From: Aquamicrobium sp.
GTDB taxonomy: Bacteria; Pseudomonadota; Alphaproteobacteria; Rhizobiales; Rhizobiaceae
Assembly: GCA_019739225.1 (NCBI GenBank)
Contig: JAHHDT010000001.1
Location: 124,001 to 188,000 of the forward strand
Reading direction: 5' to 3'
DNA: 64,000 bases
The notes beneath the pieces were generated by a model that worked only from the letters and a program-made list of their open reading frames with translations, made no database searches and was not told the origin of the DNA. The translations under genes and the position numbers were made by a program. Below, piece after piece: positions 49,947 through 58,253 of this stretch. Numbering within the stretch: position 1 is the stretch's first letter; the number at the start of each line of letters is the position of its first letter.

Positions 49947-49990
49947 CGCGCGAAATTCGATGCTGGCGCTAGCGTGCCAGCTTTCGCGCG
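49947..49990. other. Two-part hairpin at the convergent Mla / ATP-grasp junction
   Basis: An inner stem GCTGGC/GCCAGC (49962-49967, 49976-49981) is enclosed by outer arms CGCGCGAAA/TTTCGCGCG (49947-49955, 49982-49990). It starts 4 bp after the lipoprotein stop and covers the last codons of the ATP-grasp gene. No T-run follows either side. It may still stop or protect transcripts from both directions. Confidence 0.45.
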
Positions 49991-51027
49991 GCGAGCTCGG
50001 CCATGGCCTCCGGCAGCGTCATGCCCCACATGGCTGTGACATAGGCCCGGAAGTCGAAGCACGGCAGCCCGGGACAGACCTCGAATTCAAGCAACGTCAG
50101 TCGCCCGTCGGAGCCGAGCCTGAAATCCAGCGAGAAGACGTCGCGCAAGCCGAGCCCGCTCACGAGACGCGACGTCGCTTCGAACACGGACTTCGCGGCA
50201 TCGGGGTTTTCCGTGGCTAGATCGACCAGGATCGGTTCGCGATACGATCCGGCTGATCTGGCCTGTGCGCCCGTCTCGCCGTAAAGGGCCAGGCTTTCGG
50301 TCATCGTCTGAAAATCCTCGCCCGACCTGACCAGCCAGGTGCCGAGATGCTCGAGGTCTCCGGTACCGTCAACGTCGAGCCAGCTTGCCCTGAGGTTTTC
50401 TCCGGGCACATAGGACTGCACGACGGCATCATCGCCATAGGCCGAGTAGATGCGCCTGGACAAGGCCAGCGCGTCCTCGATCGAATGACAATGCGAATCC
50501 GGGTAGATGCCGATCTTGGCACCGAGCCGGTTGGGCTTCACGAACCAGTTCGCCGCATCTTCAATGGTGTGACGCTGCGAGATGAAGGTTCCGTTCCGGG
50601 TGAGCGCGGTGGGCGGGACAACGATGCCGAGCGCCTGCAGCACCGCGCCGGAGCGGAACTTGTCCTGACAGAGCGCAAACAGCGCATCGTCGCTGCCGAC
50701 TCTCCTGAACATGCCCAGGCGCGCGAAAGCAGGCACGACGCTGCCGTTGAAATAGGCGATGCCGTCCGTCAGCGTCCAGACCAGTGTCTTTTTGGGTTGG
50801 TAGTCGGCGAGATTGGCCGCGTAGGTATCCAGCGTGACCGCCGAAAACCGGATCTGGCGTTCGGCGCAAGCCTGTTCCAATGCAGGAAGTTCGGGTTCCA
50901 TGTCGATGGATTGCGCCAGATAGGATGCAATCTCTCGAGCGCGTTCTACCGGATGGCCTTCGGCGATCAGCCGTTTGAGACAGTCCTCGGGCCGCTCATA
51001 TACGAGCACCAGTGTGCTGCCCGCCAT
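49969..51027 (-). CDS. ATP-grasp protein, D-Ala-D-Ala ligase-like
   Basis: The 352-residue protein has the ATP-grasp order: an N-terminal domain, then WFVKPNRLGAKIGIYPDSH (ATP-binding Lys and loop), VVQSYVPGENLRASWLDV and the metal-binding C-terminus DVFSLDFRLGSDGRLTLLEFEVCPGLP. It resembles D-alanine-D-alanine ligases but lacks the full Ddl N-terminal signatures, and Ddl itself normally sits in the mur cluster. An amide ligase for an unknown peptide or amino acid substrate is the safer call. It has no partner genes and is convergent with the Mla operon. Confidence 0.72.
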   Translation of the reverse strand: MAGSTLVLVYERPEDCLKRLIAEGHPVERAREIASYLAQSIDMEPELPALEQACAERQIRFSAVTLDTYAANLADYQPKKTLVWTLTDGIAYFNGSVVPAFARLGMFRRVGSDDALFALCQDKFRSGAVLQALGIVVPPTALTRNGTFISQRHTIEDAANWFVKPNRLGAKIGIYPDSHCHSIEDALALSRRIYSAYGDDAVVQSYVPGENLRASWLDVDGTGDLEHLGTWLVRSGEDFQTMTESLALYGETGAQARSAGSYREPILVDLATENPDAAKSVFEATSRLVSGLGLRDVFSLDFRLGSDGRLTLLEFEVCPGLPCFDFRAYVTAMWGMTLPEAMAELAARKLAR

Positions 51028-51161
51028 CCGCGGCTCCCTTGTCCCTGCGATGGCGCACGATCGGCGTCGCCACATCCGCCGCACATATTATCGAACCGTA
51101 TCCGGGGCAGGCCCGCAGAAAATCGACTGCAGGAAGACGTGAAACAGACAAATACGGCAGC

Positions 51162-51494
51162 TCAGCCTTTGCCGCAGGCGCGCCGTTGTATGGAGCGGTT
51201 CATCGCGGTGATTTCACCGATCGCACGCGCACGGGCACGTTCCGTCTCGCTGCGCCCGTCGGGCAGGACGATGCCAAAACCGGGCGCCGTCGATTCGCGC
51301 GGAGGCGTGCGTTCGACCTGGGGCGATACACGGTGCTGTGCGGCCAGCGCATCGCGCCTGGCCTGCAGGTCTCCGCAAGGGATCGTGTCGTACTGGATCG
51401 AGTTGAAGACCTCGGCCTCCTGCTGCACGGCAACGGAATTCTGGCAGGCGGTGCAGCCAAGAGCCACGGCAGTGAGGACGAGAATTATGCGCAC
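51162..51494 (-). CDS. Small exported lipoprotein of unknown function
   Basis: The 110-residue precursor has a hydrophobic N-terminus (VRIILVLTAVALGCTAC) with a plausible lipid Cys in the ALGCTAC segment, then FNSIQYDTIPCGDLQARRDALAAQ. Two further Cys (in PCGD and RACGKG) could form a disulfide. The GTG start at 51494 follows GGAG by 7 bp. It is the same strand as the giant gene's terminator and the ATP-grasp gene. No family is recognised with certainty. Confidence 0.62.
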   Translation of the reverse strand: MRIILVLTAVALGCTACQNSVAVQQEAEVFNSIQYDTIPCGDLQARRDALAAQHRVSPQVERTPPRESTAPGFGIVLPDGRSETERARARAIGEITAMNRSIQRRACGKG

Positions 51495-51586
51495 GATTTC
51501 GCTCCGGTATCGACCAGCCCCGCTGTAAGTATAGCGCGGCAAACCTGGCGATCGTAGGCCGCGCAGCCATCTTTTCCACGCGGCCG

Positions 51587-51646: not shown

Positions 51647-54600
51647 CTATTTCAGCCTGCCGCTCGCATGGGCCAGCATGGTGTAGACCTTGCCGGTGTC
51701 AGACGTCAGGTAGGTCTGCGTCATCATGTTGTCGCGGTCGTTGCGGCCGACATCCTGCAGGAGCTTCTCGAAGTCGCGGCAGTAGCGGTCGACGGCGGTG
51801 CGGAACTCGCCGTCGGACTGGTACTTGCGGCGGATCTCCTCGAAGGTCTGCTGGCCCTTGAGCGTATAGAGCCGGCGCGTGAAGACGTTGCGCTCGCCAC
51901 GGCGATACCGGTTCCAGAGCTCGATGGACGCCTCGTGGTCGATGGCGCGGGCGATGTCGACCGAGAGCGAGTTGAGCGACTCGACCAGATGCAGCGGCGA
52001 ACGCTCGCCGGCCGGCGCGGCCGTGGCGGGCTCCTCGTCGCGCGAGGCGCCGCGCAGCAGGTCCTTCACCCACCCGCCAGACGGCGCTTCAGGCGCACGC
52101 TCCTTGACCGGGGCGTCGAGACCGCCGCGCAGCGGCGTATCGGCCAGCGGAGCAGCCGGTTGGCTTGGCGGCGCGGAAGGCGGAGGCGGCAACGACGGGC
52201 CATTGCCACGAGCAGGGGCCTTGCGGTCCGTGGCATCGAAGGCGCGGCCGGACTTGGCGACGATGTCGGCCAGTTCCTTCAGCGCATTGATCTGCTCGCT
52301 GACGGCACGACGCATGGCGGACGTCGACTGCTTGGTCTCCTCCGGCAGTTCCATCACGCCCTTCTTGACCTCGGCGCGAGTCTGCTCGAGTTCGCCGCGG
52401 ATGCTGCCGACGGTCCGGCGGATTTCCTCGGTCGCCTCGGCGAAGCGCTTGGCGGCGCCATCGACCACCTCGGAGATGGACGAACGGATCTGCTCGGTCG
52501 AGGCGCGGGTGCGGGTCTCCGCCTTTTCGAGCGCGCGTCCGACCAGATCCTCGAACGACTGCATGACGCGCTCGATGTCTTCCGACTTCTTGACGAGGCC
52601 GACGGCAAGCTTTTCTAGCGCTTCCTGGCGCCCGTCGAGTGTCGAGGCGAGGCCGTCCTGTGCGGATCCGAGCATGTCGGAGGCAGAGCTGAGCACCTTC
52701 GCGTGATCGTCGAAGCGCGTAGCGATGGCCGCGATGTCCTTGAGCGTCGAGGTCGACAGATCGGTGAGGCGACCCGCATTGGAGTCGATGAGACGCGCCG
52801 AACTGGCGAAGGACTGTGCCGCCCGCTCGGTGCTGCTTGCGAAGCGCTCGGTCGTCCCGACGACCTTCTCGTCGAGGCTGACGAGGTTGTTCGCCGCCAG
52901 GTCGACCAGCTCGTTGAGCCGGTCGTTGGAAGACGTAAGCCGGTCGATCAGGCTGGTGACGTTGTCCGACAGGCTGTTGCTGGCCGCATCCACGGCGGTG
53001 AGCGTCTCGGCCGTGCGCGTTGCGAGCGCATTGACGAGAGCGGCGTTCTGCTGGCGCAGCCGCTCGGTGGCCTGCTCCGTGGCGATCTCCAGGCTTTTCT
53101 GCAGTTCGCCGCCGCTTTCGGCAAAACGCTGCACCAGCGGTGCCGCGCGCTCGTCAAGGATGCGCGAGAGCTCGCTCGAGCGGGCGGCAAGCAGGGCATT
53201 GAGCTCCCGCGTGCGCTCGTCGATGGCGGCGGTCGCCTCGGACGTGGACTGGCCGATCTGGTCGTTGACGGAGGCAAAGCTTGCGGACACCGCGCTGGCG
53301 CGGGCGGCAAGCCCGGCCTCGACGTTGCCGATCTGCTCATGCAGCTTGTCGCCGATCTGCGCCACGCCGGCGTTGAGACGTTCCTCGGCGCGAGCGACGT
53401 CGTCGTCGATGCGTGCGCCAAGCATTCCGGCGCCGGCGGCAAGACGACGGTCGGCACCTTCGAGGCTGTCGACGATGGCTGCCGCGCGTGCTTCGAGCTC
53501 GGATGCTGTCTGCTGCGTGCGCGACAGGATCGCGTCGTCAGCCCTGGCGAACACGTCGCTGAGCGTGGAAGCATGCTGGGCGAGACGCTTGTCGGCACCA
53601 TCGAACGAGGCCGCGATCTCGGATGCGCGCGCCGTCAGCGACTGAGCCAGTGCATCGACCTCGCTGCCGAGCTGCGAGCCGGACAGGCTGATGCGGTCGG
53701 CGAGGCGCTTGTCGATCTCCTCGAAGGACGCGGAAATCTCGGATGTGCGGGAGGCGAGGGTATCCGCGATGGCATCGACCTGGCCGCCAAGCTCTGCGCC
53801 GGAAACCGCGATGCGATCGGCCAGCCGCTTGTCGGCGTCGTCGAAGGCGATGCGGATTTCCGCCGCGCGGGCGGTGAACATGCCAGCGGCGTGCTCTGCG
53901 TGGCCACGCAGTTCCTCGCCTGCTGTACGGGCGCGGTCGGACAGGCGACGATCGACATCGTCGAACGCCTCGGTGACTTCGCCGACGCGGGCAGAAAGCG
54001 CCTGCGCCGTCTGCTCTGCGCGCGCGGCGATGCGTGCATCGGCGTCGGCGACCGCCTTGCTGGCCTCTTCGCCGAGCGATGCGGTTGCTTCCAGCACCTT
54101 GTCGCGCAACGAGCCGGCGACCACCACGGCGCTGCCCTCGAGCGCGCTGCGAACATTGTCGACGCCGACATTGAGCGCGCGCTCCATGGTCTGCGTGCGT
54201 TCGTCGATGACGCCGGCCTGACGGGCAAAGGTTTCCTCGATCCGGGAGAGATCTTCGCCCAGTGCACCGCGAACCTGTTCCGCGCCCTGGTGAAGGGCAT
54301 CGGCAAGCGCACTGGTCCGTGCCTCGATCACGCCGCTCTGCTTGTTGAAGGCGTGCTCGATGCGTTCGATGTCGTCGCCAAGGGCATTGCGCACCGCTTC
54401 CGCGCCGCCGGTGAGCGTGCTTTCGAGCGCCCTTGTGCGGGCCTCGATGACACCGGTCTGGCGGGCGAACGTCTCGTCGATACGCGTCAGATCCTCGCTG
54501 AGCGCGTTGCGAACGCTTTCCGAGCCGCTGATGAGCGCATCACGAAGAGCCTCGGTGTGGGCGCCAATAACGCCACCCTGGCGGGCAAACGCTTCCTCGA

Positions 54601-57166
54601 TCTTGCCGAGATCCTCGCCGAGCGCCTCGCGCAGGCTTTCGGAGCCGCCGGCAAGCGTGTCCCGAAGCGCCTGGGTGTGGCCCTCGATGACGCCGCCCTG
54701 CCGCGCGAACGCTTCCTCGATCTTGCCGAGGTCGTCGCCGAGCGCGTTGCGGATGTTGTCCGCACCCGCATAGAGCGCGCTTTCGATCGTCTTGGTGCGG
54801 GTTTCGATGACGTTCTGCTGATGCGTGAAGGCTTCGTCGATCTTCGTGAGGTCGGCCTCCAGTGCGCCGCGCACGCGTTCGGCACCGGCCGACAGCGTGC
54901 CTTCGATCGCCTGTGCGCGTTCGTCGATCCGGGCGAGGTCGGCATCCAGCGTGCCGCGCAGACGCTCGGCTCCGGCAAAAAGTGCACCTTCGATTGCCTG
55001 CGCACGCTCGTCGATCTGACCGACATGGCTTGCCAGAGCCTCGTCAATGCGGGTGACCTCGCTGCCAAGCGCACCGCGCATCTGGTCGACGCTGCGGCCG
55101 AGTGCAGCCTGCAGATCAAGCGTGCGTTCGCCGATCACATTGGTCTGCCGGTCGAACGCATCCTCGACCTTCGCGATGTCGACCGAAAGCGCCGTGGTGA
55201 GGTCCTTCTGCCGCGCTTCGAGCGCGCGCAGATGCTCGCTGGCCGCCGTATCGAGACCGTCGCGGGCCTGCTTGATGCGGATGAGGTCGCTGTCGAGCAT
55301 GTCTGCGATCTGCTGGCGGCCTTCGGAAAACTTCTCCACGTGGCCGGTCACGGCCGCGTCCACGGCAGTGCGGGCCTCGGTAAGCTTGCGCAGGTCCTCG
55401 TCCAGCGCCTTGACCATCATCTCGCGGCCCTCGGCGAGTTTCTGCACGTGGCCGGTCATGGCGCCGTCAACGCTCTGGCGCGACTGCTCGATGCGCTGCA
55501 GATCCGCTTCCAGCGCCTGGGCGATCATGTCGCGGCCGCCGGCAAGGCGCGCCGCGAAATCGGAAGCTCGACCTTCGAGCATCGTCGAGGTCGACATGAC
55601 CAATTCGGCCATCTCCGAACCGATGCGGGCCTTGGTCTCGTCGATCAGGCCGGTAACGCCGTTCTTGCCGTCGGTGAAGGTCTGCGCGATTTCGCGCGAG
55701 CGCTCCACCAGCGTCTCGTTGATCTGGCGGGCACGGGCTTCCAGCGCTGCGTTGAGCTTCTGTGTGCCGGTGTCGAGCGCCTCGGCACGTGTCTGGAATT
55801 CCTGGATGAGTGCCTGACCACGTTCGCGCAGCGTGGCCTCGATGCCTTCGAGGCGGGCGTCCAGCTCGTTGTTGAGCGAGGTGGTCGCACCACCCAGCAG
55901 CGAAACCATGCCGGTCGTGCGCTCGTCGAGCATCTGCGACAGCGAGCGGGTCACATCGTCGGTGCTTTCGGTCAGGCGCGCGATGCGGGTGTCGAGCAGG
56001 CTTGCGAAGGCCTCACCAGACGTGGTGATGCGGTCGGAGATGGTCTCGAGGCGCTGGTCGATCGCGTCGTACATCGACGAGCCGCTCTCGTTGATGCGGT
56101 CGACGAGCTGGGCGCCGGAATCGGAAATGGTGGTGCTGAGACGCGACGAGACGCCGAGGATGTTCTGGCGAATGACGTCGCTCGCCGAATCGAGCTCCTC
56201 CTTCAGCGTTTCGTGAGCACCGGAGATGGATGAGCGGACGCGTTCGGCGTGGGTCACCACTGCCTCGCGCTCGCTGCCGAGACCATCGATCAGGGTACGG
56301 ATGCGGCTCTCATTGTCGGTATAGGCGCGCTCGAGTTCGTTGACTTCGGTATGCACCAGCGTTTCGAGCTCGACGGCTCGGGCAAGCGTGCGCTCGATGC
56401 CTTCGCCCATCGCCTGCACTTCGCGGCGTACGGCCTGGCCGACCATCATCACGCGATCGGTGGCCAGATGCTCGGGTTCGGCAAGGCGGAACGCAACCTC
56501 GGTCATAGACTGGGCCGCCAGGCGCATTTCCTGCGCGCGGCGGATCATGACGGCGAAGCCCCAGAACAGGATGATGGGAACGATGATCGCCACGACGAGG
56601 CCGATTATCTGCGGCGTTGCCATGAGTTGCTGGATGGAACGCACTTCCCAGATGGCCGGGGCAAACAGCATGTGGCCCATGACCATGCCGCCCGCCACCC
56701 AGGCGAGCGAAAGCAGCGTGACCAGCCAGTAGATCGTGCCGGGGCTCGACCGACGAAGCTGTTGCTGCAGCGAGCGGTAGTCTTTCTGGCGGTCGTCGTT
56801 GGCGTGGGCGAATGCCGATGGCGTCGCCGGGGCCGGCGGGTCGAGCGGCCGCAGGTCGGACACGGCGGCGTTCGGCGCGGGCTTCGGACCGGCCGGTGCC
56901 GGCTTTGTCGCGGCAGCGGCAGGCTTGGCGGGCTGCTCAACCTTCTTTTCCGGAACTGGAGCCGGAGCCTGCACGGCGCTGGCGCGCGAATCGCGCGCGA
57001 GGTCTTCAGCCGCCTTGGAAATCTGGGCTTCAAACTCGGCCATCGAACCGGCCACATCCAGGCCGCCCGGCTCGTCATCGACGAACAGGTCGATGTCGAG
57101 CGCCTCTTCGAGTTCTTTGGCCACTTCACTGTCGAGAGTGGTCGTCGTCGTTGCTTTACGCGCCAT
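51647..57166 (-). CDS. Giant coiled-coil membrane protein, Growth Pole Ring (GPR)-like
   Basis: This 1839-residue protein has an acidic N-terminus (1-130, with a Pro/Ala/Lys stretch 65-115), two transmembrane helices (about 144-168 and 187-207), then about 1400 residues of nearly unbroken apolipoprotein-like helical repeats with a 40-residue period. A Pro-rich linker and a conserved C-terminal domain (about 1750-1839, ELWNRYRRGERNVFTRRLYTLKG) follow. Size and layout resemble Agrobacterium tumefaciens GPR, which forms a ring at the growing pole and is needed for polar growth; the match is from recalled architecture and was not searched. The ATG at 57166 is preferred over an upstream extension. 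A terminator follows; it is divergent from an Hpt gene. Confidence 0.85.
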   Translation of the reverse strand: MARKATTTTTLDSEVAKELEEALDIDLFVDDEPGGLDVAGSMAEFEAQISKAAEDLARDSRASAVQAPAPVPEKKVEQPAKPAAAATKPAPAGPKPAPNAAVSDLRPLDPPAPATPSAFAHANDDRQKDYRSLQQQLRRSSPGTIYWLVTLLSLAWVAGGMVMGHMLFAPAIWEVRSIQQLMATPQIIGLVVAIIVPIILFWGFAVMIRRAQEMRLAAQSMTEVAFRLAEPEHLATDRVMMVGQAVRREVQAMGEGIERTLARAVELETLVHTEVNELERAYTDNESRIRTLIDGLGSEREAVVTHAERVRSSISGAHETLKEELDSASDVIRQNILGVSSRLSTTISDSGAQLVDRINESGSSMYDAIDQRLETISDRITTSGEAFASLLDTRIARLTESTDDVTRSLSQMLDERTTGMVSLLGGATTSLNNELDARLEGIEATLRERGQALIQEFQTRAEALDTGTQKLNAALEARARQINETLVERSREIAQTFTDGKNGVTGLIDETKARIGSEMAELVMSTSTMLEGRASDFAARLAGGRDMIAQALEADLQRIEQSRQSVDGAMTGHVQKLAEGREMMVKALDEDLRKLTEARTAVDAAVTGHVEKFSEGRQQIADMLDSDLIRIKQARDGLDTAASEHLRALEARQKDLTTALSVDIAKVEDAFDRQTNVIGERTLDLQAALGRSVDQMRGALGSEVTRIDEALASHVGQIDERAQAIEGALFAGAERLRGTLDADLARIDERAQAIEGTLSAGAERVRGALEADLTKIDEAFTHQQNVIETRTKTIESALYAGADNIRNALGDDLGKIEEAFARQGGVIEGHTQALRDTLAGGSESLREALGEDLGKIEEAFARQGGVIGAHTEALRDALISGSESVRNALSEDLTRIDETFARQTGVIEARTRALESTLTGGAEAVRNALGDDIERIEHAFNKQSGVIEARTSALADALHQGAEQVRGALGEDLSRIEETFARQAGVIDERTQTMERALNVGVDNVRSALEGSAVVVAGSLRDKVLEATASLGEEASKAVADADARIAARAEQTAQALSARVGEVTEAFDDVDRRLSDRARTAGEELRGHAEHAAGMFTARAAEIRIAFDDADKRLADRIAVSGAELGGQVDAIADTLASRTSEISASFEEIDKRLADRISLSGSQLGSEVDALAQSLTARASEIAASFDGADKRLAQHASTLSDVFARADDAILSRTQQTASELEARAAAIVDSLEGADRRLAAGAGMLGARIDDDVARAEERLNAGVAQIGDKLHEQIGNVEAGLAARASAVSASFASVNDQIGQSTSEATAAIDERTRELNALLAARSSELSRILDERAAPLVQRFAESGGELQKSLEIATEQATERLRQQNAALVNALATRTAETLTAVDAASNSLSDNVTSLIDRLTSSNDRLNELVDLAANNLVSLDEKVVGTTERFASSTERAAQSFASSARLIDSNAGRLTDLSTSTLKDIAAIATRFDDHAKVLSSASDMLGSAQDGLASTLDGRQEALEKLAVGLVKKSEDIERVMQSFEDLVGRALEKAETRTRASTEQIRSSISEVVDGAAKRFAEATEEIRRTVGSIRGELEQTRAEVKKGVMELPEETKQSTSAMRRAVSEQINALKELADIVAKSGRAFDATDRKAPARGNGPSLPPPPSAPPSQPAAPLADTPLRGGLDAPVKERAPEAPSGGWVKDLLRGASRDEEPATAAPAGERSPLHLVESLNSLSVDIARAIDHEASIELWNRYRRGERNVFTRRLYTLKGQQTFEEIRRKYQSDGEFRTAVDRYCRDFEKLLQDVGRNDRDNMMTQTYLTSDTGKVYTMLAHASGRLK
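53581..54060 (-). repeat. 120-bp repeats, second family, inside the GPR-like gene
   Basis: Four blocks of exactly 120 bp are aligned at 53581, 53701, 53821 and 53941, each sharing a GCTTGTCGGC/GCTTGTCGAT-like core in register. They encode 40-residue helical units of the form RASEIAASFDGADKRLA in the protein. They differ from the family at 54241-54960, showing that two repeat types were expanded separately in the same gene. Confidence 0.8.
54241..54960 (-). repeat. Six tandem 120-bp repeats inside the GPR-like gene
   Basis: Six 120-bp units start at 54241, 54361, 54481, 54601, 54721 and 54841. The two at 54601 and 54721 begin with the identical TCTTGCCGAG and stay nearly identical for most of their length. 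In protein they are 40-residue units of the pattern LGEDLGKIEEAFARQGGVI followed by a variable half. The exact period and similarity suggest recent slippage or recombination within the coiled coil. Confidence 0.9.
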
Positions 57167-57461
57167 GCCGCTACCCTGTACTCGTTTGGCGGGTCGCCTT
57201 ACCGGCGCCTCGTCCCCGCTCTTTGGGCCTGATACGGGCCATAGCGTATCGTAGTGGGACAGGCCGCCAAAGGAAACTGCGTTTTGGCGCCATGTGTAAA
57301 ACTTTAAACATAGGGTTAACAGCCGAACACCAAACAGGTTTTCGCAAACGTTACCGGCCTGTGGAGCAAGTGAGGAAGCCGTACCCGCGTTAACCGCTTC
57401 TCCACCCCGAAACGGCACAGTCGGTCCCCACCTGGAAACGGCCGGCAAGGGGATTGGGACG
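57167..57461. promoter_or_regulatory. Divergent promoter region of the GPR-like and Hpt genes
   Basis: This 295-bp non-coding region must hold the promoters of both genes. It contains TTAA-N8-TTAA at 57304-57319, one base longer than the CtrA consensus TTAA-N7-TTAA. A GTTAACC lies near 57390. AT-richer sequence around 57290-57350 stands out against the GC-rich surroundings. I see no gene. Confidence 0.5.
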
Positions 57462-57830
57462 GTGAAGGACCTGGATAGCGCTGCATTCGGCAAGCCCGGC
57501 GGCGAGACGTGCGAACCCTCGCAGTCTAGACCGATCGATCTCGTTCACCTGTCGCGGCAGACGCTTGGAGACCGTGCGCTCGAAGAGGAGGTGCTGGGCA
57601 TGTTCGTCCAGCAACTGGCCGCGGCACGCGACAGCCTGGCGGCCGCAGATGCGGCCGGGCGACGCATGATCGCCCATACGCTGAAGGGCACGGCGAGGGG
57701 AATAGGGGCGTTCAAGCTCGGCGACTGCGCCGCGGCGATCGAAGAGGCCCCGGACAACAAGGCGCTGATCGCACGCCTGTCCCACTCCATCGACGAGGTC
57801 CGCGACTTCGTCGCAGCGATCAACAGATAG
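57462..57830 (+). CDS. Hpt domain phosphotransfer protein
   Basis: This 122-residue single-domain histidine phosphotransfer protein has the phosphoacceptor His72 in IAHTLKGTARGIGAFKL, the expected HxLKG signature. Hpt proteins relay phosphate between a hybrid kinase and a response regulator. The GTG start at 57462 is the first in the frame. It is divergent from the GPR-like gene across 295 bp and alone on its transcript. Its kinase and regulator are not in the window. Confidence 0.86.
   Translation: MKDLDSAAFGKPGGETCEPSQSRPIDLVHLSRQTLGDRALEEEVLGMFVQQLAAARDSLAAADAAGRRMIAHTLKGTARGIGAFKLGDCAAAIEEAPDNKALIARLSHSIDEVRDFVAAINR

Positions 57831-57923: not shown

Positions 57924-58253
<330 letters not shown>

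Follow-up and report, generated by a model that had tools for sequence, protein, structure and literature searches.

The window, that is, the whole 64,000-nucleotide stretch of Aquamicrobium sp. contig JAHHDT010000001.1 that was analysed, carries on its minus strand a very long gene (51647-57166) whose ATG opens a frame of 1839 residues; the enclosing open frame is longer, the first listed start being a TTG at 57493. Hydropathy places two transmembrane helices near the N terminus, at residues ~145-163 (56678-56734, minus strand) and ~190-208 (56543-56599, minus strand), the residue numbers being converted from open-frame numbering with an offset of 126. The region around this membrane hairpin (residues ~125-330; 56177-56794, minus strand) was identified by profile comparison as one of two conserved blocks, one to which the earlier sequence-only reading had not drawn attention, the other being the C-terminal domain (CTD; residues ~1726-1839; 51650-51991, minus strand). 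Between the two lie a nearly proline-free helical coil of ~1425 residues (~215-1640; 52247-56524, minus strand) and a proline-rich linker (1641-1725; 51992-52246, minus strand): proline makes up ~1% of residues 216-320, 0.15% of 321-1640 and 20% of 1641-1725. The bulk of the protein is predicted to be cytoplasmic. A sequence-only reading of this DNA had proposed two N-terminal membrane helices, about 1400 residues of apolipoprotein-like helix and a conserved C-terminal domain. The helices and the coil are borne out, the latter by a match of the Pfam apolipoprotein family (PF01442) with E 3.3e-41 spread over 9 stretches, and both are features of GPR and RgsE, the rhizobial polar growth proteins. 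The domain is also real, with the correction that it extends somewhat beyond the limits of 1750-1839 first given to it.

Only three Pfam models scored above their cut-offs with the 1839-residue protein (apolipoprotein, baculovirus PEP C-terminus and apolipophorin-III), all of the helical low-complexity type, and no NCBIfam model did. In the genome to which the window belongs there are 8 PF01442 matches, all within this gene, no single stretch exceeding the cut-off. Antisense to the coil runs an open frame of 1176 residues (52703-56233, plus strand), which most likely reflects the repetitive, GC-rich codons of the coil rather than a gene. Downstream of the gene lie a 126-residue frame (51162-51542, minus strand) with a lipobox-like start, LGCTAC, and no Pfam match, and a frame (49969-51084, minus strand) with a match below threshold to the D-Ala-D-Ala ligase C-terminal (ATP-grasp) family.

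On the other side, and divergently oriented, is a gene for a single-domain histidine phosphotransfer (Hpt) protein (57462-57830, plus strand; PF01627, E 4.7e-8) with the phosphoacceptor histidine in the motif AHTLKG, adjoined by a 2Fe-2S ferredoxin-type gene (57933-58253, plus strand; PF00111, E 1.6e-12). Between the divergent genes, at 57305-57319, there is a site of the form TTAA-N7-TTTA, with one mismatch to the CtrA box consensus.

As to what the long gene encodes, the CTD is 79% identical to that of Sinorhizobium meliloti RgsE (SMc00190). This came from a tblastn search of plasmid records, which returned six records, one of them from S. meliloti with a protein of 2089 residues annotated as 'kinesin'; the printed length of RgsE is the same, 2089 residues (PMC7327166). 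In a filtered blastp comparison with the S. meliloti protein, residues 103-1010 matched with E 2.9e-108 and residues 1542-1838 with E 1.6e-85; the N-terminal match amounts to 32% identity over 927 alignment positions and includes part of the coil, where chance similarity is high. The CTD alone, used as a query, matched once and only once in every one of 40 genomes (its own and 39 relatives), at 36-100% identity, so the CTD is not a chance similarity. The synteny points the same way: in both organisms the divergent Hpt gene neighbours the long gene and the ferredoxin gene follows next to Hpt, and the two Hpt proteins are 43% identical across 104 residues. Since CTD identity, matches at both ends, single copy and common neighbours agree, the comparisons support the gene as an ortholog of RgsE, and through RgsE of GPR, as the sequence-only reading had supposed from the layout; RgsE and GPR are reported to be 42% identical (PMC7327166). 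Among the best 80 of a larger number of matching loci, named or metagenomic, the nearest four belong to Mesorhizobium microcysteis, a Hyphomicrobiales metagenome-assembled genome and two Aquamicrobium (92-95%); no locus named Agrobacterium occurred among these 80 or among the six plasmid records. One S. meliloti record, CP090106.1 (locus L017), of 3.7 Mb and labelled pSymB, carries the rgsE locus together with housekeeping genes such as folP and is probably a mislabelled chromosome.

As an alternative, the protein could resemble GPR through low-complexity helix only and be a generic coiled-coil membrane protein. PF01442 is indeed sensitive to composition, with sub-cut-off matches in 7 of 14 unrelated control genomes too, and the ZorA and SpiroCoCo models give weak matches, far below cut-offs and confined to the coil. 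What refutes this explanation, which we regard as very improbable, is the CTD, a domain beyond the coil with 79% identity to its counterpart in RgsE; the synteny and the single match in 40/40 genomes contradict it as well. The coil matches to ZorA, SpiroCoCo, exonuclease VII and baculovirus PEP were discarded as composition effects, the anti-phage protein ZorA reaching 32.6 of the 190 bits required by its NCBIfam model; the label kinesin was likewise rejected, as neither protein matches a Pfam kinesin motor domain.

A gene of this kind is in itself ordinary. The sequence-only reading had suggested that, if orthologous, it would be a shorter GPR outside Agrobacterium. That is not new: Krol et al. 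2020 (PMC7327166) described RgsE homologs from every family of the Rhizobiales, and distant homologs from Emcibacterales and Rhodospirillales. GPR of Agrobacterium tumefaciens assembles into a ring at the growing pole and is required for rod shape (PMC8262873). RgsE of S. meliloti is not strictly essential, depletion causing slow growth and misshapen cells, and its two-hybrid partners are RgsA, RgsS and TolQ (PMC7327166). The Brucella homolog is located at the new pole (PMC9938171). The window protein very probably belongs with these, as an RgsE/GPR ortholog that would serve as a cytoplasmic coiled-coil scaffold, tied to the membrane by its hairpin, marking and organising the growing new pole; polar localisation, ring formation and the role in rod shape are carried over to it by analogy from the papers on its relatives. 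In this model the N-terminal hairpin would anchor the scaffold to the inner membrane, and the long helix would run as a straight amphipathic rod, setting the spacing of the protein at the membrane and driving its multimerisation there. The CTD would be the head at which partners dock. More tentatively, the divergent Hpt protein may act at the same pole, either as a partner of the CTD or by coupling a phosphorelay to pole growth.

The CTD had been left without a role from the sequence. Internal and C-terminal deletions of GPR have been described in A. tumefaciens, and they show that this end is needed for function (PMC8262873). There, removal of the last 10 residues impaired complementation and kept the paired foci, which persisted even after removal of 332 residues, and the authors concluded that the C terminus is dispensable for paired foci (PMC8262873). 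These results fit a head used for docking rather than for assembly. Against this, depleted cells with a 221-residue deletion had no polar foci, which points to a possible additional effect of the C-terminal region on targeting (PMC8262873). AlphaFold2, run on 42 close CTD sequences, predicts an all-helical domain at moderate confidence (mean pLDDT 72.8, pTM 0.66; five models from 72.8 to 50.0). Foldseek found no match to this model in the PDB at E <= 0.001, and searching PDB sequences with the CTD profile brought up nothing credible, the best hit being an endolysin-STING fusion at E 0.003. Because the model is moderate and nothing in the PDB matches it, the docking role draws no support from the fold.

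The CTD reaches well beyond the order. Among 387 alphaproteobacterial genomes it was found in 153 with a four-row profile and in 159 with a 62-row profile, and in a sample of 249 genomes from the phylum all 80 that matched were Alphaproteobacteria (among the 20 listed of the 169 non-matching genomes, 8 lie in the class and 12 outside). In 62 of 64 loci no more than 21 residues follow the CTD before the frame stops; the other two loci have a partial match (L146) and a match within a longer frame (L160). Three family codes outside the order call for separate mention. The holdfast gene hfaA, whose model matches Caulobacter vibrioides, was present in 5/6 genomes tested of code f71 (4 above cut-off) and absent in 5/5 genomes of other codes, and we read f71 as Caulobacteraceae; its CTD proteins are TipN-like in size and layout. 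The CTD proteins of f37 match Tritonibacter and Ruegeria records at 65-67%, and we read this code as Rhodobacteraceae; they have ~350 residues, a hairpin and the CTD. In Ruegeria and Tritonibacter this short homolog is carried by large plasmid or chromid records (NC_008043.1, NZ_CP015231.1 and NZ_CP110385.1), 0.8-1.3 Mb in size, and a Sphingomonas record holds a 774-residue version of the CTD protein. The third code is f144.

Both ends of the protein are shared across these groups. A script found the pair of membrane helices in 87/96 proteins of the order, 41/45 of other class members, 5/6 of f71, 10/10 of f37 and 2/2 of f144. Comparing the N-terminal block of the order by hhalign gave probabilities of 99.7 with the class, 97.5 with f71, 96.2 with f37 and 89.3 with f144, values that hydrophobic helices can inflate; the corresponding CTD probabilities were 99.7, 96.6 (62 columns), 94.3 and 2.3. 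The f144 CTD matched that of other class members weakly (probability 66), and since this match is doubtful, membership of f144 rests on the N-terminal block and the neighbouring gene. By profile, both ends match the Caulobacteraceae proteins, which are candidates for TipN. Plasmid records supplied no name for the Caulobacteraceae-like copies, a search with the f48 CTD returned only the six known plasmid records, and two of the TipN-like proteins gave no TipN match in NCBIfam.

What changes between the ends is the rod. In the window protein residues ~641-1250 (53417-55246, minus strand) form tandem repeats of 40 residues, with self-similarity peaks at 40, 80 and 120; this period can be written as 11+11+11+7, corresponding to 3.64 residues per turn if it spans 11 turns. 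Across the 96 proteins of the order the strongest period was most often 29 (43 proteins), 22 (13), 11 (12), 36 (9), 94 (7) or 40 (6). A multiple of 25, a repeat that parses as 7+7+11, was among the top three periods in just 2/96 of these, compared with 36/45 in other class members, 5/6 in f71, 2/2 in f144 and 0/10 in f37, whose proteins have almost no coil. With the coil cut differently, a multiple of 25 was strongest in 0/96, 31/45, 4/6 and 1/2 proteins of the order, the class, f71 and f144, respectively. The top period exceeded 95% of 50 shuffles in 64/96 proteins of the order, 8/45 of the class, 1/6 of the Caulobacteraceae and 0/2 of f144; as single coils are often non-significant by shuffling, the contrast between groups carries the weight. 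A control drawn from other open frames yielded two comparable stretches, too small a sample. The coil has 11-residue-rich repeats in the order and more often a 25-residue repeat elsewhere in the class.

The Hpt gene was followed with a profile that started from the window and S. meliloti copies and was then extended irrespective of position. In the first 64 loci, 25 of the 27 Hpt frames found were divergent from and adjacent to the CTD gene. Within the order the divergent pair was present in 79/93 testable loci and absent in 14, three more being untestable; a further three (L054, L103 and L111) yielded no usable frame and were left out of all counts. Of the 79, 63 are close relatives taken from the best 80 loci of the CTD scan, and among the 12 loci of other families of the order the pair was found in 11/11 that could be tested. 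Outside the order it occurred in 11/60 testable loci: 9 other class members (33 lacked it, 3 were untestable), 0/6 of f71, 0/10 of f37 and 2/2 of f144. The active-site pattern is kept in 86/90 Hpt copies (77/79 in the order, 7/9 in other class members and 2/2 in f144). In the Sphingomonas-type Hpt neighbours L019:5625-5924 and L134:8702-9025 the phosphoacceptor histidine is replaced by L or W, as in pseudo-Hpt proteins. Searching the 387 genomes for this Hpt subfamily gave matches at 1e-8 or better in 89; the 36 best (E <= 1.3e-22) include, by our reading of their coordinates, 25 beside the CTD gene (8 of which were already part of the profile), 10 elsewhere and 1 at a contig end. Literature searches, which covered few subscription journals, returned no mention of a link between an Hpt gene and GPR or RgsE.

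Conservation of the pair need not mean function in common: the Hpt gene could be unrelated to GPR and kept beside it through the stability of the region. The ferredoxin gene shares part of the same synteny, the pair is missing from 33/42 loci of other class members as well as from all Caulobacteraceae and Rhodobacteraceae loci, the Hpt match of the Caulobacteraceae is unlinked (a weaker match elsewhere in the genome in 5/5 searched), and in two small-genome relatives no Hpt of this type was found at 1e-4. Against mere regional stability stand the presence of the pair in every testable locus of the other families of the order and in some loci beyond it, the retention of the active site, and the tree. 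On the latter (72 rows, two end blocks, midpoint root, 31/69 inner branches weak) the pair label needs 4 changes, a count obtained without a shuffle control. The rows without the pair in the pair-bearing half are f71, a Brucella-like branch and two untestable loci (L157 and L176), and we read the absence in f71 and the Brucella-like branch as losses; a long branch in the opposite half of the tree carries two Sphingomonas-type rows with the pair. On balance, we give an unrelated neighbour somewhat less than an even chance.

Regulation of both genes from the site between them is suggestive only. The window as a whole contains 2 CtrA-like sites allowing one mismatch, 0.92 being expected. Of 19 loci of the order (the window itself, two named Rhizobiaceae, 4 loci from further genera of the family to which the window belongs, and 12 from other families), 14 have such a site, where shuffling gives 5.8 on average and 9 at most; for the remaining class members the count is 13/42 (mean 6.4, maximum 11), in Caulobacteraceae 2/6 (mean 0.06, maximum 2), in Rhodobacteraceae 0/10 and in f144 0/2. 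The raw count of 81/89 loci is too high a measure, since it includes near-identical Rhizobiaceae and the intergenic DNA is AT-rich. Eleven Brucella/Ochrobactrum-type loci without the divergent Hpt gene (L101, L108, L110, L114, L116, L118, L119, L122 and L127-L129) keep a near-identical CtrA-like site ~150-175 bases 5' of the first ATG.

Set beside known systems, the window protein is closest to RgsE, with which it shares the order of parts (two membrane helices, coil, linker and CTD), the domain identity and both neighbours; it differs in length (1839 against 2089 residues) and in its coil period of 40, the RgsE coil having periods of 22, 11 and 44. GPR (Atu1348), compared by its printed description, also has two N-terminal membrane helices, ~1700 helical residues, a proline-rich stretch and an important C terminus (PMC8262873), but is longer, at 2115 residues. 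The similarity of GPR to TipN has been stated in print (PMC8546619), and GPR has been termed analogous to TipN of Caulobacter crescentus, a protein of 882 residues (PMC13170164). The six Caulobacteraceae CTD proteins have the same order of parts in open frames of 830-1005 residues; they differ in a much shorter coil, a diverged CTD and the unlinked Hpt, and their identity with TipN is putative. The ~350-residue hypothetical protein of Rhodobacteraceae (with a match in Ruegeria sp. TM1040) shares the membrane hairpin and the C-terminal CTD, but is nearly coil-less and has no Hpt neighbour.

This spread raises the question of whether the family is a general, TipN-like scaffold for polarity or the envelope, polar growth being one of its uses, so that the Aquamicrobium protein might serve polarity more than wall growth. 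In its favour are the occurrence of the CTD and N-terminal block in Sphingomonas and in the genomes that we assign to Caulobacteraceae and Rhodobacteraceae, and the published likeness of GPR and TipN. The window gene, however, groups with the order in a clade of 21 rows (SH-aLRT 100), whose published members act in polar growth, and we hold this wider reading to be less likely than not; the preferred reading is the polar growth scaffold described above. The kind of protein is thus already known; beyond that, what merits a second look is the spread through the class of a family with two conserved ends, its pairing with Hpt and the switch in coil repeat. A tentative proposal, which we consider possible rather than probable, would join them: GPR, TipN and the nearly coil-less Rhodobacteraceae protein may all belong to a single ancient family of alphaproteobacterial pole scaffolds, in which the ends are conserved and the rod changes freely. 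In the Rhizobiales this rod would have grown longer, and its 25-residue repeat (7+7+11, a left-handed coil) would have given way to hendecad-rich units of ~3.63 residues per turn, which make a straight amphipathic rod, as the scaffold was recruited for polar wall growth. The ancestral partner would be a dedicated Hpt protein linking the pole to a phosphorelay, and a CtrA-type site would control both genes. If the rhizobial polar growth ring and the Caulobacter new-pole landmark do share one ancestral scaffold with an overlooked Hpt gene, the passage from a polarity mark to a growth machine would become testable.
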